From Hypomesus transpacificus (lineage: Eukaryota; Chordata; Actinopteri; Osmeriformes; Osmeridae), in NCBI RefSeq assembly GCF_021917145.1, contig NW_025813705.1, positions 519,501-583,500 on the forward strand: a stretch of DNA of 64,000 bases, given 5' to 3'. This document shows positions 8,503-60,790 of this stretch, piece after piece. The translations under genes were made by a program, and so were the position numbers. Positions within the stretch are counted from its first letter, which is position 1; the number at the start of each line of letters is the position of its first letter. The notes beneath the pieces were generated by a model that did not search any database, was not told where the DNA came from, and saw only the letters and a program-made list of their open reading frames with translations.

Positions 8503-9792
8503 TCAAGTCATTGAGATGCTATTGTTGCACTGTGGTACTCGTTTTCGGTTGACTGTACCTGTAAATACAGACTGTTACTTGACTCAGACTATTGAAATAC
8601 TATTAAAACTCGACACTTCTGATCCTCAATCGTCTGCCGTGCTTTCTATTTGCACTATTTTATGTTGTTGGATAAAAGTTGATTGGGATCAAAGCATCTG
8701 CTACAGCTAGATGTATAAAATGTGAATGGAACGTGACAGAGACACCTCATCTTTGTAGTTGTATGTCTGCAAATTCGAAATGAAGACATTGATTTTGTTG
8801 ATGGTTTCTTATGTATGTGTAGGTTTTGTGCAGTAGGAAATGAACAAGTGAGTAATGAATGTTAAATTGTTCATTTACTGTTGGGACCTTAAAATATTGA
8901 AAGAGAGAGCTCATCCATAAAATGCAGTGGGTTTATTTATAGAGGGACAGATCAAGCCATGTGGAACGAGCTACTACAGGGTGCATAGTTCAGATAGCTT
9001 TTAGAGGAAAATAACGGGAGAAAAGAGAAAGACCCCCCCCCCCCTCCCGCACCAAACCCACATTTGCATGTAAGGCCACTTTGGTGGATGGGACATTAAA
9101 CTTTTAGAGAATGCAGCAGGACTGCAATAAATAATTTCCACTTTGAAAAGTGGAAGGTCCATGCTTAACTCCCACATCTCCAGCCAAGGTCCCTGCACTG
9201 TTAAAATACTGCTTCGTGTCAGATGCAACTGTTTTGGATGACATATGAAGAAGTGACATCTTAAAACCCTCCTTATATTATTACTAAAGTAAAAGAGGAA
9301 ATATTGCATGTGGCATGAAAGAAGGCACAGACCCACAAGGTAGATCTATCCATTAGGTTTTGCATGATGGACATGAATATCTCGCCATAAAAGGGAAACA
9401 CTCAATGTACATAAATAAAATATGATTGGGCCAATGAAGACTTAAACCATAAAGAGGTTAATCCTTTAGCAGTTGACATGGAGAAGAGAAGCACAAATGG
9501 TTATCATACTTTGAACATAGTTTCCTACTGGCCTCAAACAATTGGTATTCTAGTTGTAAACGGTGTACTTTTAACTGAACTGGAACTTGAATAACGGTAT
9601 GTAATACAATTACACAGTTTTCTTGGCAGTAACTTTGTCTAGAATGAGTAATTTTCCGTGGGTTACTTCTAACTGAGGGCATTCAAACTGTCAATTAGCT
9701 ACCTATTCTAAGGTAGATTACTTCACCAGAAACGTTTATGTTGAAAACGTTTTAAGAATGTTTGGCTTTCCCTCAAAATTGTTGATTTTTGA

Positions 9793-9866
9793 CATTTATA
9801 GCGCTCTGGATAAGAGCGTCTGCCAAATGACTAAAATGTAATGTAAAAAATGTAAATGTAAATGTA
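9793..9866 (+). mobile_element. SINE 3' tail fragment
   Basis: It contains GCTCTGGATAAGAGCGTCTG and CCAAATGACTAAAATGTAA, then an ATGTAA repeat tail. This matches the 3' part of the full SINE at 60601-60790. The tRNA-like head is missing. Confidence 0.6.
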
Positions 9867-15900: not shown

Positions 15901-18900
15901 TTATTTCCAAGCTCCAAGATGAATTTGAAAACCGCACAAGAAACGTCGAAAGTGAGTTGTTCCCAAACTACAACACACGCTCTCTCTCTCTCGCGCTCTC
16001 TCTCGTTCTCTCTCTCTCACGCTCTCTCTCTCTAAATAACCTCCCAGTCACACTGTCGCCTCTTGCCCGCTTTCCCTCCAGTCTACGAAAAGCATGACGG
16101 CCCCCTCACCACCGAGGAGGAGGAGCAGCGGTGCATCGCCAAGAGCAAGATGCTGGGCAACATCAAATTCATCGGGGAACTCGGCAAACTCGACCTCATA
16201 CACGAGTCTATCCTTCATAAGTGCATCAAAACAGTACGTCCCCCCCCCCACCTCCTCCTCCTCTAAGGGATGAAGTCTGCTTAGATGCAGAACTGTGATT
16301 TTGTTTTATTTTTAGGGGGTGATTTGTCCCTGTTGAGGGCAGAGTCCTGTTTAGAGTCTTACCAGCTTGTTAACTCTGATCCTCTGCAGCTCTTGGAAAA
16401 AAAGAAGAGGGTCCAACTCAAGGACATGGGTGAGGATCTGGAGTGCCTCTGTCAGATAATGCGAACGGTGGGGCCTCGACTTGACCATGAGAAAGCCAGG
16501 GTGAGTCCCGTCTCCTCTCGGCCCTCCTCCTCGCCCTCCCAGAGGCTGGGTGCCGGCTCCCTGTCAGCAAAAATCTAGTCTGCGAAGCCAAAGATGTCAT
16601 AAAAGCTAGGACGAGCCACATCGCTGCCGTCGTAGTCTGCCCCATGCCAGAGCCTAACTGCGCCTGGTTGTTTTTAATCCATGTATGTTAGTTCTAAAGC
16701 AACGCTGAGGACGTTCGTTGTGTAGGTTTGACATAGACGGCTACACAAATCATGTATACAAAAAACAAGAAAAGAAAAATTACACTTTCAATTATCCGCC
16801 ATCTGGGTTTTAAACTTTTTTAAGCTTTGTACAACTTTGTGTTCTGTCAATAGTGACATTACCGATAGTGGCAGGTACCGTACATGTGCTGAGTATAGGT
16901 AAAGTGGTTCCTGACTAATCCATCCCCCCCCACACACACACACAGTCTCTAATGGATCAGTACTTTGGCCGGATGAAGTCGTTAATGAGCAACAAGGAGC
17001 TGCCTGCCAGGATCCGATTCCTCCTCCAGGACACATTGGAGCTGCGAGACAACAACTGGATCCCCCGCAAGGCTTTCATCGACAACGGCCCCAAGACGAT
17101 CAATCAGATCCGTCAGGATGCCGTCAAGGTGACACTAAGGAGCCCTGTCAGACAAATTGCTCTTTAGGAGTCAGAGCTTTTCTTCTTTGTCTTTGGTTGT
17201 TGTTGTTGTTAGCAATGTTGTCATTCATCCTTACCATGCCATTTCCTTTCCGCGGAACCTACAATTCAGTCGATCTGATACATACACGACTAAACAATGT
17301 TAATGTCTTATGCGTAGACATTGCCACATGTAAGCATGCATCCTATCTCCTTAGCCCAGAACACTACCGCCCTGTAATTGTTGTTGTGCCTTTAGACCTC
17401 CCCATGGTTACCCAGTGTTATGCAGTGTCCCAAATGAACTCGTCCGCTTGCATGTCCTCGTGTCGTCTCCCGCAGGATTTGGGTGTGTTCATCCCTGCGG
17501 GCATGGCTCAGGGGATGAGGATGGAATTATTCATGGAAGGCTCCTTCATGCCCAACCGCATGAAGCTGGACAGGGAGACACCCGGGGGGCTGGCTGACAT
17601 GTTTGGACAGATGCCAGGTCGGTTGTGTGTGTGTGTGTGTTTCTCTCTGAAGGCCTGATCTGTGCGTCTGTAGCTCGTCTTGCCATCTCCTGGTTGCCAT
17701 GCGGGGGTTTCTCTTTTTGAAGTCTTTTTATGACGCACTGCCGAGGCAAATGCGAGGCCAATGAATGCTGTTTGGATTTTCATGATTATTCATATTTAAA
17801 AACGGAATGACAAATTTAAATAATCATGAAAATCAAAACTGCATTTGTGTGTATACTGTATAGATATAGATATCTATCTATCTGCTTTTAATAACCCCTG
17901 CTGCCTCTGTGTTGTGTCAGGGGGAGGGATAGGGACGGGCCCTGGTGTCATTCAAGACCGGTTCTCACCCACAATGGGACGCCATCGCTCCAACCCTCTC
18001 TTCAACGGCCACGGGAGCCACGGGGGCCACAACGCCCCCCAGCCCCCGTCCCAATTTGACATGGGGGCCAAGCTCTTCATCAAGCCCAGCCAGGTCACCC
18101 CTCCTTCCCCTCTCTTCTCGGGCTAATGCTGCTCCAGCCCATGGCCAGCGGCCTGTCCCTCGTCCTATATCCGCGGTGAATTGACCCCGCGTGTTGATTG
18201 TGTGCCCCGTCCTCTCCGTCGCAGGTGCAGAATCAGCATTTCCTCAACCAGAACCAAAACCACCAGGCTCAACAGCCGGTCCAGTCCAAGGACATGACCC
18301 CCCGGTTCAGCAAGAAAGGTCAACTCAACTTGGACGAGGTGGGTGGCCCTTGAGGAATACGACGCACCAGGCTGCTGAACGGAGCCTGTTTGTTTGTTTG
18401 TTGTTGCTGCTGAAAGAAAGTGTGACTCATGCCCGGTGATTATGAAAAGACGCGTTATTCTGAGGAGTCTAACCGGCTTGCCAGTTGAATCTCTCTCCTG
18501 TCTTTTCCTTCCTCCCTCCTTCTCAGTCTTCTCCTCCTCCCCTCTCTCTCCTAGCCCCTCCTCCTCTGCTTATTCCCTTCTCCAACTGGCGACTGGTCCG
18601 TTGACTGCGATTATGAGATATGAGGGCATGAGGACCGTTGGTCAAAACGTGGCTGTGTGGAAGCCCATTTGGGAGTTTTCGATATGGTAATGGTTTGTGG
18701 TGTTTTTCCACTGGCTCCGCCCCAACAGATCAGCCTGAGGCCGGCGCAGTCGTTCCTCCTCAACAAGAACCAGGCGCCCAAGCTCCAGCCCCAGAACCCC
18801 ACCATGAACCCCCACGGCAACCAGCCCCCCCGCACCCAGACCCCCCCACTGGGACAGGTATAGGCCCCGTTAACCCCCCTCCACGCCACATGACCGGGCA

Positions 18901-21543
18901 CGCTCGCGTGGAGATCCGGTCCGAGCCTGGTCGCGCATGCCCATACTGACTCGATCTCTCTCCCCTCAGTCTCCACAGCTTGGCCTTAAAATCAACCCGC
19001 CGCACATCCAGGAGAAGCCTCAGAAGATCTGCAAGAAACCCCCGCCTGCCAGGGAGGAGCTGCTGAAGATGACGGTAGGTTCCTCGTCAGCCTCCAGGCT
19101 CACATCCTACTGGTCATCCAGCCTTCAGCTTCGACCCCCCCTCTAAAGGATCTATATAAATCACATACATTTGTATCGGTGCAGATATTTCCCCTTACTC
19201 TAATCCAAAATGCTGTTGGATTTATGCATCAAATTCCTAAATCCTCCCTCCCTCTTCTCCCTCCCTCCGCTCCCTCAGGAGACGATCGTGACGGAGTACT
19301 TGAACAGCAAGAACCTGACGGAGGCGCTCGGCAGCATTCGGGAGATGAAGGCGCCCAAGAGCTTCTTGGCGGAGATGCTGAGCAAGGTGATCGTGTGCTC
19401 CCTGGAGCGCCCGGACGAGGACAAGGAGCACTCCAGCACCCTCATCCACAGCCTCCGCTCCGAGGGCCTCATCACCGGAGACAACTTCATGCTGGTATGG
19501 TACACACACACACACTTAACATTGACAAATCCCCAGTTCATGATGATGATATGACTGATATCATGATCTTAGTTTTTCAGAAGGAATTCAAATAGTCAGT
19601 GTTGACATGATACCATCAATGGGACGATATACTGATACCAAGTCCAGTATCAAAGTACGCGATACTAATGGTTGACTTCATATGTGTGGAATTTCAATTT
19701 GTTCAATAGTAATTTTTGGCCAATGAACAGAAGTGTCAGCATAAATAAGATTAGCTGCCTAAGTTGCCCTGAGCTCCCCTGAGCTCCCCTGCCTAAGTAG
19801 CTGTCATGTCTCAGTGTTCCACGGTTTCCCCTCTGGACTGGACTGTGTAACTCAGTCTCCCCCCTCCCCCAGGCCTTGATGTCCGTGCTGGACCAGTGTC
19901 CCAAGATCGAGACGGACGTGCCCCTTGTCAAGTCCTACCTGGCCCAGTTTGCAGCGCGTGCCGTCCTGGCCGAGCTGGTGAGCGTGGCGGAGCTGGCCCA
20001 GCCCCTGGAGAACGGCACCCACTTCCCCCTCTTCCTGCTCTGCCTGCAGCAGGCGGCCAAGCTGCGGGACCGAGACTGGCTCGCCGACGTCTTCCAACAG
20101 AGCACGGTCAACATGCAGAGGATGCTACCCGGTAGGCCTCACCCGACACCTGCATGTCTGAGCGACGCGTGGATGAATGGACCTTGCACTTGTTGCCCGT
20201 GTGTCGAATTAGGCCCGGCGTTAAAACTTCCTGACGTGGCGACTGTCTCACGACATGCTTGTATCGTGTGTGTTCATTGTCAAACTGTACATCTGTATGT
20301 CGAGTTGGGTACATTCAGCTTGGTTAAGCTTCCATCCCTTCGTGGTGTGTCGTGCACGGGGTATCCGGGGGTCCACCACAGCCGTCTCCCTGACTTGCTT
20401 TTGTAACGGCACCTGTCTGCTCCCTCTGCCAGAGATCGATCAGAACAAGGACCGCATGCTGGAGATCCTGGAGGAGAAGAGCCTGGGCTTCCTGTTCCCC
20501 CTGCTGAAGCTGGAGAAGGAGCTCCTGGTGCAGATCAAGGCCGACCCCTCCCCCCAGTCCATCTACAAGTGGATCAAGGACAACATCTCCCCCAAGCTCC
20601 ACACCGACAAGGGCTTTGTCAACATCCTCATGACCAGGTAGCTGCACGCGCGGGCGTCGTTTGGCATGTTCGCGGGAAACGTTCATTTAGTGGATAACCA
20701 GAGAATGATGACCTGCCCATTAGGTCTCGGATGGAAGTTCACTTTTATTTTACTTTGTTTTGCGTAACTGCCATCGCTAACACCACCTCTCATGGGCTCT
20801 CGCTCCCTCTCTCGCTCCCTCTCTTTCCCTCCCTCTCTCCCTCTCTCTCCCTCTCCCCCTCTCTCTCTCTCGCTCCCTCTCTGGCCCACCCAGCTTCCTG
20901 CAGTTCATCTCCCAGGAGCTGGGCGTGGTGGAGGAGGACCAGGCCGCGCCCCCCAAGGAGCAGCTGGAGCAGGAGAAGCAGCTGCTGCTGGCCTGCAAGC
21001 CCGTCCTGCAGAAGTTCCTGCACGACCACACCCAGCTGCAGGTCAGCGCCCTGTACGCCCTGCAGGTGCACTGCCACGCCAGCGACTTCCCCAAAGGTGG
21101 GTCTCGCACGCACGCACGACCTACCCCCGCCCGGCCTCGAAGGGCGCGTCACTCAGTTCACACGCTGTCACGTTGCCACGTGAACGTTTACCTGAGGTGC
21201 TTTTAATGCTGCCTTTAACCCTTCGACTTACGTTTCAGGCATGCTGCTGCGCTACTTTGTCCACTTCTACGACATGGAGATCATCGAAGAAGAATCCTTC
21301 CTCGCGTGGAAAGAAGATATCACCCAAGAATTCCCTGGAAAAGGAAAAGCTTTATTCCAGGTATTGCCTTTCCCAGGGCTAAAACTGCTTAAGAAAAATG
21401 CATGTTTAGTAGGAATTTGACATTTCCAGGCGCGTAAACCTCACTCTTCATCAACAACCCTTCCTTCCTGACAGGTCAACCAGTGGTTAACATGGCTGGA
21501 AACCGCAGAGGAAGAGGAGTCTGAAGAAGAGGTTGAAGGCTGA
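12931..21543 (+). CDS. eif4g2: Eukaryotic translation initiation factor 4 gamma 2 (DAP5/NAT1/p97), GTG start
   Basis: This eIF4G-like scaffold binds eIF4A and eIF3 but lacks the eIF4E and PABP sites, and supports cap-independent and alternative translation. The coding exons are 12931-12971, 14569-14634, 14964-15089, 15307-15409, 15566-15697, 15885-15951, 16082-16233, 16390-16500, 16946-17128, 17476-17617, 17921-18093, 18225-18338, 18729-18857, 18970-19074, 19279-19494, 19873-20131, 20433-20637, 20894-21096, 21239-21360 and 21475-21543. All phases agree and give 905 aa; human is about 907. MIF4G is roughly residues 75-310 (GILNKLTPEKFDKLCLELLN, LGNIKFIGELGKL), MA3 about 535-665 and W2 about 715-900 (VNQWLTWLETAEEEE). 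The protein begins VESVIAEGGASRFS at a GTG in the context GCCGCCAAAGTGG, as in mammals. The 38-codon exon 18225-18338 is in phase and could be skipped. Confidence 0.97.
17775..17834. repeat. Perfect 16-bp inverted repeat in eif4g2 intron 10
   Basis: GATTTTCATGATTATT at 17775-17790 is exactly reverse-complemented at 17819-17834, with a 28-nt AT-rich loop between. It could fold into a hairpin in the pre-mRNA or be the ends of a tiny MITE. Confidence 0.7.
18428..18630 (+). ncRNA. snord97: Box C/D small RNA, SNORD97-type, in eif4g2 intron 12
   Basis: The terminal stem CATGCCC (18428-18434) pairs with GGGCATG (18624-18630). A C-like box GTGATTA follows the 5' stem, a D' box CTGA lies at 18460-18463, and a D-like box ATGA at 18620-18623 directly precedes the 3' stem. 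The guide GATTATGAGA (18609-18618) is complementary to the anticodon loop of elongator tRNA-Met. G18615, the fifth base upstream of the D box, pairs with wobble C34. Human SNORD97 lies in an EIF4G2 intron and directs 2'-O-methylation of that C34. This copy is about 203 nt against about 140 nt in human, because of a pyrimidine-rich middle. The C and D boxes are non-canonical. Confidence 0.75.
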
Positions 21544-23234: not shown

Positions 23235-26200
23235 TCATTCCTCATCGGTGGGTATCCAGAAGTACTCGACCACCTTCCTGCCTCTCCTCGTGGGGCTGGT
23301 CTCATGCATGGCCCCTGCCATAGGAGCCAGATCGGAGAAGTGAGAAGGACCCTGGTCCTTACCCACACGCGGGGGGGCAGTGACCCTGAGCATGGTCCTG
23401 GAAAACACAAAACATGAGGGTTTCCTGTCCATGTCTTCAAGTTGACCGTAGGTAAATGAAAATAGATACTAGGCTTCAATCAGACACTGAATCAGGGCTT
23501 CATACACTTTGTTGAAGCCTACAGTGGTGAATCACCAGTACTAGGTTTCATATACACTGTTAAGCCTACACAACCGAAATCCCTTCAGTTGTAGACCGGT
23601 TTCATCTGAGAGACATCCAGATCATCTGGATGTATGGTGGTTTGTTGTGAATGTGGTTACCTGGACGGGCTGTTGTCGGCATCCTCGACCCCAAGCTCAG
23701 GTGTGGAAATGTAGACAGGGTCCCCTTCCTGAGGGCAGTGAAGAGGATTTGTTATCGATGTTTGTTGTTAAAGAACATTGTGTTTTGTTGAATGTTTTCC
23801 TATTTGTATCTCTCGTACTGTAAAATTCCTTGGAGTGCCATCCTGATTTTTCAGAATTTTCACTCTCTGGTCACTCTCAGTCATGCACAGAAAGTAGCTC
23901 TTTATATTGGCTTGACACTGTAGGGAAAACAACAAAAAACAATAGAAACTCAGAAATAAAGTATGAATAAATATACAAATGAAAGTCTTGATTAAGTTTG
24001 ATGATAGTCAGTATGTAAACCATAGGTGGCAAAACTACCTAATATATTATTGTTGCAGGCATATTGCAGCAGTAAATAAACACATTGTGTCAGAGGAGAG
24101 TCAAACAGGGTTCCCACGCACAGCTTTGTTCTGCCTCTGAGACTTCAGGTCCTCCTGAGCTCTGAAGATGTCCGTCAGGTTGTGGTGCTTCTCCCTCCAG
24201 CCCAGACACTCGGCCGTGCGCTCCTGCCTCTCCCTCTCAGCCACGAGGCGCTCCTGGTCGGCCTCCAGCTGCGCTCTCTCCGCCCTCTCTCTCTGCTCCT
24301 CGGACATCAAGGCCCGCCTCCTGGTGCTTACTTCTCTTTGTAGTGGAAAATACAATACAGAGAAACGTCTTGAAACGTCCCTGATGGATGTGTCACGTCG
24401 CCGGGATGTTTGGGCTACAAGAACCACATTTCTCCATACTAAAAACTGTGTTGACAACGAGAGCCTTATCCAAACCAACTATTCCCCCTTTCGCCCCTAT
24501 ATAATAAGGTTCATATAATATGAACTAAATGATATGCAATAGTTGCTCAATATCATATGGTACCAAACCTATACATATCACTGTGCAAAGCAAGGTTAGG
24601 GTTAGGCCATAGCTTCTCCCAGGAGGAAACCGATATCCTTGTTTGGAAGAGGCCGAGTTGCCCAGTGCGCATAAATGTCACCTCCAGTAGCCTAAACCAC
24701 CGCGGTCAGATTACATCAAATCCTCATGGGCATTTTAACCCTAACCCAAGGGCAGACCCGTGCCAACATAACATGAAAAAGTGGCGTGCTTACAGGCCAG
24801 GTCATCTACCACGCAAACGCCTGACTGTGCTAAGAGGTGGTCTGAGCACGGGGAGACGCTAGCGCAATATTCTGCTTTAATGGACACAACTAGCACTGCG
24901 CCTCCGGAGTTGAACTGACACGCCCTCCACTGCGCTTCCACACCCATTTCGGCGAAAGCGATGTCATGCCCGTGCAGGCAAGAGAAAAACCACCTTGCAC
25001 CCAACAAAAACATCCCTACTGGTCTTGACACAACAATTTCAACACTCTTGCTCAACATGCACAACTTTTTTCACATTTACATAAGGTTGTCATTTGTATA
25101 CATGTTCTATATATAGGCCTACAATGGGTATGTGTTTACAGTTTAGTGTATGTTACACACATACAATGCCCTTACTTTTCTCTGATCTTCACATTCTCTT
25201 CAGTCAGTTGTCTCAGCTTGTGCCTGAGCTCATTCCTCTCACCCTCCAAGCTCTGATTTTCCCCCAATAGAGTGTGTTTCTCCCCAGACACCCTGTCCAG
25301 TTTCAGCTTGGTCTCAAAGTAGTTCTTCTCCGTTTTGGCCAGTAGAAGCTGAACATCTGTGTGCTGCAGGAGGAAAAAGGGAAGTCACCAACCAGGATAG
25401 TTCAAATCAATTCAACTCTCCTATATTCCATTGAAACAGCCCCAAACTGGAAACTGGAGACATAGTGCACATACACTGTAGCACTTTTGGAGACAATATC
25501 CTCTCAAGGGAACTCCCATTGACTCACCAGGCATGACTGACCTCAACCAAAGTATGTATACTGTTACACGTGCTGCTCTGCTTCAGTTACCCTAATGACA
25601 CTAACCAGTTGTGCTTACAGAAGGAATGATTAAAACTGACCCTGTCGAGTAAACCACCCCCAAAATGTGTGCTAATTTCTGTGTTAGGTCATGCATGTGT
25701 TTGTGAGAAGGTTTGAGTGTGTGTTTTTTTTTAAGGGACCACCTCTTTTTTGAGTTGCTGCAGTTCCTCACTGAGCTTGTTCATGGCAACCTGGGCCTGC
25801 TCCCTTTCCTGATTGCTTCCCAGCGCCCGTGCCTCTGCCAGGGCCCGGCTCGTCTCTGCCTCACCCCGGGACATATCCGCCTCATCTGCTGCCCGGGAGC
25901 ACAATGTCGCCCTCTGTTGGCTAAAATACACCTTCTGCTTCAACTAAAGAGATCACAGTGGTTACGTTAGGAACACGAAGGTAAGGTCATGCAATATGTT
26001 TAAGATCTGATGGTTCACAACCCCATTATGTAATATTGTATGTACTGTGTAATACATGTATATATAATACTGTATATATTACAGCTGGATTGTAGTTCTA
26101 GTTTCAAGGTGACATTTTATACTGATTCCACATCACAGGTTGCCTTTGAACAGGGTTTGAAACAGCGACAGTGACAGTTATCGGCTCTGAGATTTGGTCA

Positions 26201-50232: not shown

Positions 50233-52412
50233 ATGTCAGGGCTTACTGTATTCGTAAATAAATTGCCTGTATCTGCCTCGAATGAACGACTGGAGGAAAT
50301 ATTTTCTGAGATTGGCCCGCTGAAGCAGTGTTTTGTTGTCAAAGAAAAAGGTGAGCGAAGCATCACTTAATTGATAAATTTAAGCCAACCTGTATGACCT
50401 ATCTACTTGGCTACAGCCCATAATGTCTTCATAGCAAAACACTAACACGGGTTGTATCTATTCTATTCAGGTGGCGACAAATGCCGAGGTTTTGGATATG
50501 TCACCTTCTCAATGGAGGAGGATGCAAAGCGTGCTCTGAAACAAGTATGTCTTTATGATGGCCGCAAGATAACAGTCGATGTGGCTAAAAGGAAAATCAT
50601 TGACAAGAAGGGTAAAGGTACGTGAGATTCATTTGGATGGTAGCTCACTTTTCATGTCAGCATTCCGGCTTTTCATTGTTCTGTGTGACCGTGATCCCTT
50701 CAGCACCCGCAAAGCCAGAAACCAAAACGACCGCAGGCACACTGCCAGCCCCTCGAAAAGAGCAGAAAACAAACATACCGAAGAACTCCCTGAGGAAAGC
50801 AAGGCTAATCATCAGGAATCTCAGTTTCAAGGTAGGCCACATGAGACTGAACACATAGAGATGTGTGCTCCCGTGTCCACAAGGCCCGTAATTGATGGAG
50901 CATGTCCTTTGTCTTTCGTTGCTGCAGTGCTCTGAGGAGGATCTGAAACAGACCTTTGCCATGTTCGGGACTGTTCTCGAGGCCAACATCGCTCTGAAAC
51001 CAGGTGACTTAGCCCAGAATGATATCTACACTTACAAACCTCCAGCCCCTATGAAGCCAATCCGGATGTGTTCAGTTTAGCAAAGGCCAAAGGGCCTGGC
51101 GTCCGTCAGTGTTTGATGATGTCTCTCTCTCCCCTGTCGTGACGTCCGTTCAGATGGGAAGATGCGCGGCTTTGCGTTTGTCCAGTTTAAGAACCTGCTG
51201 CAGGCTGGAAATGCCCTGAAGGCCATGAACCTGAAGGAAATCAAAGGTAATGCGCGGGACACTTCTACCTGCCCTGGATGAGACGCGCAACGTCGCCGAG
51301 CTGTTGAGCGTTGGTTTGAAAGGTTGGAGGTCCACACAGTGGGTTAAACCATGTGATGACTCCACTCTCCCGTCTCTGTTCCCCATAACAGGACGGCAGG
51401 TTGCTGTGGACTGGGCTATCGCTAAGGACAAGTTCCTTGCCTCTCAGCCACCCACTGCCTCAGGTAATCTGCATAGTTCGATAGTTTGCCAATGCAATAA
51501 ACCGACACAGATCATAGTATTAGCATGGACAGTTGCAATCATTTCCATAACACAGCTACAATCACGTTTGCACTCACAGATAATGTGAGACAGTAATCCT
51601 ATTCCCACACGCGTCAAACATGAGTTTGAATTGTCCCACAGGAATTACGAATGGGGAGAAAATTGCATCAAAGAAACCAACAGCTAACTCCAAGGAGGAG
51701 GAGAAGGAAGAAGAAGAGGAGGAGGAGAAGGAAGAAGAAGAGGAGGAAGAGGAGGAAGAGGAAGAGCAGAAACCAGTCGCACCTCAGAAGAAAAAGTACA
51801 ACCTCTTCTTTCTTTGTCCCTGTTAAGCGACATGTTCCTGAAGTGGTTTGGATCTTTGTAGAGACCGGGTCATGGGGGCCTCACCATCAGATGTGTGTGC
51901 CCGTCTCTCCTCAGAGCCTCCTCCAAGCCTGCCCCTCCTCTGCCAGAAGCCCCATCAGAGGATGAGAGTGAGGAGGAGGAGGAAGGTGCTGATGATGCTG
52001 ATGATGAAGAGGATGAAGACAACGATGATGATGACGACGACGATGATGACGACGATGAGTCCCGAGAGGGAGATGATGATGACGAAAGTGATCTTGGGTC
52101 TGATGAGGACGACGACGACGATGATGATGATGACCCAGGTATGTCCATCCCCTTGCTCTCTCTGTGTATTAGCGGTGTTGTGAAGTCCTCCTGTATTCTG
52201 CCCGCTCACTGACATCTGTCTCTGTGTCCAGGCCGGCCTGCCAGGAAGAAGCGGACCCTCCCCTCTGACGTCAACGAGGGCAAAACCGTCTTCATCAGGT
52301 CCGCCTCCAACCCCGACACATACCCCCCCCCCCCCCCCCCCGCCCCTCTTACCCTTACCCCCCTACCCCCCCACTCCTCTCCATCTTCAACCCCAGCACA
52401 CTCCCCCCTCTT

Positions 52413-52447
<35 letters not shown>

Positions 52448-55400
52448 TCTTCATCCCCTGCACACTCCCCCTCTCTCCAGACCCCCCACCACCACCGCCA
52501 TACAAACCCCCACAGACACACACTTCAGCCATGAACCCAGTAGGGGATGATTATGGGGGGGGGGGTGCCTTAAGGTGCTCATGGATGATGTCACCCCCCC
52601 CGGCTTGCCTTGTAGGAACCTGTCGTTCGACACGGAGGAGGAGGGCCTGGAGGAGGCGCTGCTGCGCTACGGGGAGCTGAAGTACATCAAGATCGTGGTC
52701 CACCCGGACACCGAGCACTCCAAAGGTCTGTCTGCCCGCTTCGCGCCAGCCCGCGTGTCCCGGCGGAAGCGGCTCGCTGATTGGTCTTGTCTGCCCTTTC
52801 CCCCCCCCCCCCCCTCACCCAGGCTGTGCGTTCGCTCAGTTCAAGTGCAAAGAGGCAGCGGACAGGTGCATCAACCTGTCTCAGGACGAGTCGGAGGTGA
52901 GGCCCTGCAGAGCTACAAAGCTAGCTTGTCCTCACCCTGAGGCATCGTGCTTATGTGTGCTTGTCTGGGTGTCGACTGAGCGTGTATTGCACCGCCTGTG
53001 TGTGTGTGGGTTAGACCGGCGGGATCCGAGTAGATGGGAGGAAGCTGAACATCGTCGCGGCAGTGACCAGAGAAGACGCCAACAAGCTGAAGGACAAGAA
53101 GGTGAAGGTGGAGACGGGCACCAGGAACCTGTACCTGGCCAGGGAAGGACGTGAGTTAGCTCCTCCACTGAACCCGACTAAAGCCTCTCCCAGAAACACC
53201 ACTAGAACCCATGTATCTCACACAAGACTCATCTGACTGTGTGTGTGTGTGTCAGTGATCCGTGCGGGAACCAAGGCAGCGGAGGGCGTACCAGAGGCAG
53301 ACATGGCCAAGAGACAGAGGGTGAGCGCCGCGGTGGCGGCTGCTCCGTCCACCCTTCACGCCGTGCGCACGTTCCGGAAACTTCCAGCCAGCCCGCGCCG
53401 CTTGCCTCCCCTCCTGACCATGCCTCTCTGTGTGTGTGTGTGTGTGTGTGCCTCCCCACCGTGTTAGTTTGAGGAGCTGAAGCGGACCAAGCTGCGGGAC
53501 ATCTCCGTGTTCGTGTCCAAGACGAGGCTGTGCATCCACAACCTGCCAAAGTCGGTTGACAACAAACAGCTGAGAAAACTCTGCCTGGATGGGGCTGGGG
53601 GAGGCAAGGCAGTCCGCATCACCGAGGTAAAACACACACACGCGCACACAGATATTCCCTGTCTCATATTTCACCGATTCTCAAATATGTTTTCAGTGAA
53701 GGCCACTAAGTGGCACTGTTGCTAGGAGCAGGTTGATTTCCTTCATGGTGGTGGTGCTCTACGTGTGTGTGTGTGTGTGTGCCGTGTATCTGCAGTGCAG
53801 GGTGATGTACGACAAGAAGCCAGAGAGGGGTCAGATCACCGGCCGCTCGCTCGGTTACGGCTTTGTGGAGTTCCAGGACCACGAGCATGCTCTGAAGACC
53901 CTGCGACACCTCAACAACAACCCTCAGATCTACGGCTCTAATAAGGTGCACCCCCCCCCCCCACACACACACACACATGCACGCCTCTGCCCCACACGCG
54001 TGTCTTACACGTCGAGCCTAGCCAATCAACACACGGGAACATAAGTGTTTTTGAACTGGTGAATCGACCAGTGACAGTGTTTCATCCAGCTGTGTCTCTG
54101 TCTGTGTGTTTGACTGTGTCTGTGTGTGTGTGTGTATGTGTGTCTGTATTCCTCCTCAGCGGCCCATTGCGGAGTTCTCTCTGGAGGACGGGAGGAAGCT
54201 GAAGATGAAGGAGGCCCGACAGCAGCAGAGCAAGGTGGGTGGTGTGTGAGTGTGTCTGTCCCTCCCCCTCCCGTGGAAGCCATCCTCCATGGAGGAACAT
54301 GACGCTCCATGTTGCTCTGTTTTCACCCTCTCCAGCAGCGTTTCAGGAAAGAGCCCGGTACAGGAGGACCACCCCAGACCGGGGGCGGGGCCGGCCCTCA
54401 GAAGGGCGTGGCTGGACCGAAGGGTGTCACGGTGATGGGAGAGGGGCAGGCAAAGACACAGGCCAAGACCAGAGGTGAGGCCTTTCTGTTCTTCACAACA
54501 GTAGGAATAGTAATGATAATGATAAATCACTCATTTAGCTATGGTCACTAAGCACTCTCCTCTTTATGCTCACTGTGTCCTCATATCACTCATATGACAC
54601 CTCTCTTCCTCTCCCGTCCATTCTGTCTGGGGCTCCAGCCCAGGGTCCAAAGCAGGGCCAAGCCCCGAAGCAGGGCCAAGCCCAGGGTCAGAAGCAGGGC
54701 CAAACCCAGGGTCAGAAGCAGGGCCAAGCCCAGGGTCAGAAGCAGGGCCAAGCCCAGGGTCAGAAGCAGGGCCAAACCCAGGGTCAGAAGCAGGGCCAAA
54801 CCCAGGGTCAGAAGCAGGGCCAAGCCCAGGGTCAGAAGCAGGGCCAAACCCAGGGTCAGAAGCAGGGCCAAACCCAGGGTCAGAAGCAGGGCCAAGCCCA
54901 GGGTCAGAAGCAGGGCCAAGCCCAGGGTCAGAAGCAGGGCCAAGCCCAGGGTCAGAAGCAGGGCCAAGCCCAGGGTCAGAAGCAGGGCCAAACCCAGGGT
55001 CAGAAGCAGGGCCAAGCCCAGGGTCAGAAGCAGGGCCAAACCCAGGGTCAGAAGCAGGGCCAAGCCCAGGGCCAGGATCAGAAGCAGGCCCAAGTCCAGG
55101 GCAAGAAGCAGGCCCAGGGTCCAAAGCCAGGCCAGAAGCGGGGCCAGGATCAGATGCATGGCCAGAACCAGGGCCAGGGCACATTCTACTCTGGGTTCCA
55201 CACTAAGCCAGAGGTGGAACACATAGAACTGGAGGATGGCAAGAAACGAAGGAAGACTCTACCCTTTCCTTCACATCGAGGACCCAAGATCAGGTATGTC
55301 CACGTCTTGACACATCACAACAAAAACCACCCCTTTCATATCTCAACTCCTCTGTTTGGCTGACCCCTTTCCTGGTGTGTGTGTGTAGACTGAGGGACAA

Positions 55401-60600: not shown

Positions 60601-60790
60601 GGGAGTCAGGTGGCTGAGCAGGTAGAGCATCGGGCCAGAAATTTGAGGGTTGCCAGTTCAATTCCCGGCCGGTGCACATGGCGTTGTGTTTTTGGGCAAG
60701 GCACTTCACCTTACTTGCCTCGGGGGAATGTCCCTGTACTTGCTGTAAGTCGCTCTGGATAAGAGCGTCTGCTAAATGACTAAATGTAAG
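60601..60790 (+). mobile_element. Full-length tRNA-derived SINE
   Basis: The head GGGAGTCAGGTGGCTGAGCA is followed by a B-box-like GGTTGCCAGTTCAATTCCC, resembling a Leu/Ser-type tRNA. The body contains GGGCAAGGCACTTCACC and GGGGGAATGTCCCTGTACTT. The tail is CTCTGGATAAGAGCGTCTGC then TAAATGACTAAATGTAA. It is the intact form of the tail fragment at 9793-9866. Confidence 0.8.

Follow-up and report, generated by a model that had tools for sequence, protein, structure and literature searches.

Which RNA does the stretch at 18429–18629 encode, and on what would it act? An earlier note had read there an intronic box C/D RNA of the SNORD97 kind, aimed at the wobble base C34 of elongator tRNA-Met, and had called for a covariance-model search. 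All coordinates are positions in the window, the whole 64,000-nt stretch of DNA that was analysed (Hypomesus transpacificus contig NW_025813705.1, 519,501–583,500, forward strand). A cmscan of the whole window gives a match to SNORD97 (RF01291) at 18429–18629 on the plus strand with 59.2 bits (E=1.7e-7), above the curated gathering score of 45 bits, and the search is thus positive. The match spans model positions 1–142 of 142, that is, the full model, and is one of two in the window that reach their gathering scores. It shares 28 of the 31 5′-terminal and 20 of the 21 3′-terminal letters with the consensus, and the middle of the RNA aligns poorly to the model. With 201 nt the match is 59 nt longer than the 142 model positions, in agreement with the length of about 200 nt given before, and the mature RNA is predicted to measure about 201–203 nt. 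We consider it nearly certain that this stretch is the SNORD97 gene of H. transpacificus.

The match lies in sense orientation within an intron of 390 nt (18339–18728, plus strand; GT...AG, phase 0), whose boundaries we placed by reading the sequence together with the translated exons. The flanking exons read ...SKDMTPRFSKKGQLNLDE and ISLRPAQSFLLNKNQAPKLQPQ.... Pfam recognizes four of the six open-frame ranges around the locus, as MIF4G, MA3 (twice) and W2, although one of the two MA3 matches, at 20 bits, falls short of its cut-off (23.2); the other two ranges give no Pfam match. A single PDB sequence, 3l6a (E=7.2e-24), matches the open frame with the better MA3 domain; it is that of eukaryotic translation initiation factor 4 gamma 2. 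Judged from these translated frames, the host gene is eif4g2. Together, the RF01291 match and this host support the SNORD97 reading of the earlier note. One observation weighs against it: the 98 nt between the snoRNA end and the 3′ splice site contain no YTNAY branch-point match. Three YTNAY matches, including CTAAC at 18469, lie inside the RNA.

Several other features of the window came to light in these scans. A UnaL2 LINE 3′ element at 60732–60785 (plus strand) scores 62.8 bits, above the gathering score of 55, and another at 9785–9836 (plus strand) scores 42.3 bits, below it. A permissive Rfam scan of 5000–32000 yields eight rows, seven of them under their gathering scores. Near the eif4g2 exons, a weak MIR7504 match (17764–17845, plus strand; 31.7 vs 83 bits, E=0.048) is probably a simple hairpin. 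Downstream of eif4g2, the minus strand at 24104–25943 carries open frames rich in charged, coiled-coil-like sequence, and no Pfam family is found in any of the three minus-strand open frames at 24–26 kb.

The ends of the RNA carry the hallmarks described before. The 7-bp terminal stem is formed by CATGCCC (18428–18434, plus strand; pairing probabilities 0.94–1.0) and GGGCATG (18624–18630, plus strand), and box D, ATGA, stands beside the 3′ arm at 18620–18623 (plus strand). Box C, GTGATTA, occupies 18436–18442 (plus strand). The earlier note called these boxes odd, a view that does not hold, as box C is AUGAUUA and box D is AUGA in the RF01291 consensus itself. Across box C, GATTATGA at 18438–18445 has the same letters as the beginning of the D-box guide and might form 8 pairs in the anticodon loop that the guide targets (nucleotides 33–40 of human tRNA-Met). 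This complementarity is probably due to chance, because the Rfam consensus has GAUUAUAA there.

Upstream of box D, the antisense element extends over 18609–18619 (plus strand). The guide GATTATGAGA (18609–18618) occurs once in the 64-kb window, where a mean of 0.07 is expected by chance and 7 of 100 shuffles contain it. The elongator and initiator tRNA-Met sequences in our pairing tests are taken to be the human ones; ARAGORN reads the elongator sequences as tRNA-Met(CAT) and detects no tRNA gene in the window. With nucleotides 30–40 of elongator tRNA-Met, 18609–18619 forms 11 pairs, ten Watson-Crick and one G-U, so that the 10-nt complementarity to the anticodon region reported earlier is confirmed and grows by one pair if the G-U is counted. 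G18615, the fifth base upstream of ATGA, pairs with C34 of the human tRNA, as had been proposed. Against the initiator tRNA, the longest helix has 7 pairs. Of 5000 dinucleotide shuffles of the 203-nt RNA, 138 have, at any position, 10 nt that are Watson-Crick complementary to elongator tRNA-Met, and in 10 such a stretch lies no more than 5 nt from a TGA. Stronger evidence than these shuffle statistics is the Rfam match (E=1.7e-7). The predicted ensemble speaks against the SNORD97 assignment at one point, where parts of the guide (18609–18610, 18615–18617) pair with the pyrimidine tract at probabilities of 0.54–0.68. The exact 20-nt guide/D-box stretch has two matches in viral contigs, which share their surrounding sequence; we regard both as unrelated, since neither matches SNORD97 up to E=1. 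A 19-nt version has no match in the non-vertebrate genome-contig collection.

The D′ side of the RNA contains a further complement to the same tRNA. GACGCGTT (18449–18456, plus strand), with GACGCG at 18449–18454, has identical letters in the RF01291 consensus and forms 8 pairs, one of them G-U, with tRNA-Met 21–28, which adjoins the guide target. When 18445–18459 is shuffled, 457 of 20,000 sequences reach 8 pairs anywhere on the tRNA and 12 of 20,000 reach them within tRNA 20–31, a region chosen post hoc. Among the eight best helices for one of the tRNA sequences are one of 9 pairs and several of 8 pairs at other places, which look like chance. The predicted ensemble ties this element to the tract (18444–18452 with 18499–18507, probabilities 0.66–0.90), which speaks against an accessory pairing with the tRNA; such a pairing is possible. 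The D′-like CTGA at 18460–18463 (plus strand) is not a conserved D′ box, because the consensus has AAGA at that place. We rejected a second methylation guide on this side: T18455, the fifth base upstream of CTGA, would meet nucleotide 22 of the tRNA in a G-U pair, and the consensus reads AAGA where CTGA would be D′. Elongator tRNA-Met is not known to carry a methylated G22, which also counts against this candidate. The complementarity of GACGCG pointed out by the earlier note is real, but a function for it has weak support, and a role as second methylation guide is not supported.

Between these elements lies a pyrimidine tract of 94 nt with 92.6% C+T (18490–18583, plus strand). Its presence had been noted correctly, and it is odd only in length, as the middle of the RF01291 consensus is also pyrimidine-rich. 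The RNA shares with SNORD97 the host gene, the terminal stem, the AUGA D box, the RUGAUUA C box, the GACGCGUUAUU element, the guide GAUUAUGAGAU and the pyrimidine-rich middle. It differs in its size (201 nt vs 142 model positions), in the longer tract, and in having CTGA where the consensus has AAGA after the GACGCGTTATT element. Within the SNORD97 family, only the length of the tract, and with it of the RNA, stands out, and the RNA is otherwise ordinary. Eight pyrimidine segments were detected across both strands of the window, four of which score at least as high as the snoRNA tract, itself included. The segments that score above it are located at 52323–52478 (plus), 51692–51772 (minus) and 20797–20882 (plus).

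The fold of the whole RNA is not beyond chance (z=0.17; an equal or better fold in 113 of 200 shuffles). We noticed a possible, weakly predicted internal stem that would close the tract, with arms at 18472–18487 and 18583–18597 on the plus strand. The duplex of these arms has −24.3 kcal/mol, and 3 of 2000 mononucleotide shuffles are as stable, for stretches picked after inspection of the sequence. The arms of a human composite give −19.1 kcal/mol (31 of 2000 shuffles as stable), and the crossed pairs of arms, this RNA with the human composite, give −8.5 and −14.3 kcal/mol. The stem is part of the minimum-energy fold, has an ensemble probability of only about 0.10, and is absent from both the centroid fold and the RF01291 structure. 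Local hairpins compete with it, those of the human composite at 0.63–1.0 and 0.87–1.0. On these grounds, we do not claim an internal stem around the tract.

Published work describes two human RNAs with this target. According to Vitali and Kiss, 2019 (PMC6601510), human SNORD97 resides in EIF4G2 intron 13 and SCARNA97 in LARP4 intron 10, and together they methylate C34 of elongator tRNA-Met in HAP1 cells, which bears out what the earlier note said of SNORD97. The same paper states that C34 methylation protects tRNA-Met from angiogenin in human cells, and that apparent homologues of both RNAs occur in all vertebrate genomes investigated there, with a D-box guide that is invariant except in bird SNORD97. 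Archaeal box C/D RNPs carry out the same reaction at C34 of elongator tRNA-Met, according to the same paper (PMC6601510); they are archaeal and have no eif4g2 intron as host. In other papers, crosslinking recovered hybrids of human SNORD97 and of SCARNA97 with tRNA-Met (PMC12645875), SNORD97 appears in a table of chicken RNAs (PMC3349704), and the human C34 finding is mentioned (PMC7671301; PMC12710937).

SCARNA97 (SNORD133; 216 nt in human), for which PMC6601510 gives a description and a probe, shares with our RNA the guide, the target and a pyrimidine-rich stretch that is about as long (93 nt vs 94 nt). In human SCARNA97, that stretch is needed for the Cajal-body location shown for this RNA (same paper). 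A long pyrimidine tract alone does not define the SCARNA97 family. The host of SCARNA97 is LARP4, whereas that of our RNA is eif4g2, and its D box, deduced by complementing the probe given in that paper, is CTGA, in contrast to ATGA here. We favor SNORD97 over SCARNA97 because of the eif4g2 host and the ATGA D box.

A rival explanation that concerns location, not identity, holds that the tract directs this RNA into Cajal bodies, in which case SNORD97 would be partly or wholly a scaRNA in this fish; it therefore overlaps with the SNORD97 assignment. The 94-nt tract with 92.6% pyrimidines resembles in length the 93-nt stretch of SCARNA97, a likeness that is suggestive only, and after removal of U65–U154, human SCARNA97 moved out of Cajal bodies and into the nucleolus (PMC6601510). 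However, human SNORD97 is nucleolar according to the same paper, although the middle of the consensus is also pyrimidine-rich. The host gene and the D box are moreover those of SNORD97, and long pyrimidine tracts are common in the window and may simply grow by slippage. We judge this relocation unlikely. A more elaborate reading puts a SCARNA97-like loop on the internal stem, with visits to Cajal bodies and with tRNA-Met gripped at the two nearly adjacent sites 21–28 and 30–40, which would help to open the anticodon arm; it takes the internal-stem counterpart of human SNORD97 to have different arm sequences. The ensemble results count against this reading, which seems a little less likely still than relocation.

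Two further explanations bear on whether the stretch works as a snoRNA gene. The tract might act mainly in the pre-mRNA and modulate the splicing of eif4g2 as a cryptic acceptor: taken together, CTAAC at 18469, the pyrimidines and an AG resemble a 3′ splice site, with TTCTCAG (18520–18526) and CTCCTAG (18548–18554) lying downstream of CTAAC. But use of such an acceptor would bring a premature stop, since the following exon (open frame 18624–18863) is read in the same frame as the D-box TGA (18621–18623), and we find this explanation highly improbable. Still less credit is due to a decayed SNORD97 copy from which a stable RNA is no longer made. The poor fit of the middle to the model and a fold not better than shuffles agree with decay, but the terminal stem, box C, the D′-side element, the guide and box D are all undamaged, and the copy is located in the expected host gene.

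We return to SNORD97 as the best explanation. The family match, the host intron, and the pairing and spacing of the guide are established in this analysis. In the mechanism we propose, the RNA would be released from the spliced eif4g2 intron, and its ends would pair as the terminal stem, with a kink-turn of the box C/D type. The RNA would assemble with the box C/D proteins, the methyltransferase fibrillarin among them, and the D-box guide would base-pair with elongator tRNA-Met(CAU) at its anticodon arm, whereby C34 would be 2′-O-methylated. The recognition of this RNA as SNORD97 is known biology, with a known kind of RNA, a known host gene and a known target, and the H. transpacificus locus adds one more copy of an already known tRNA-modification guide.
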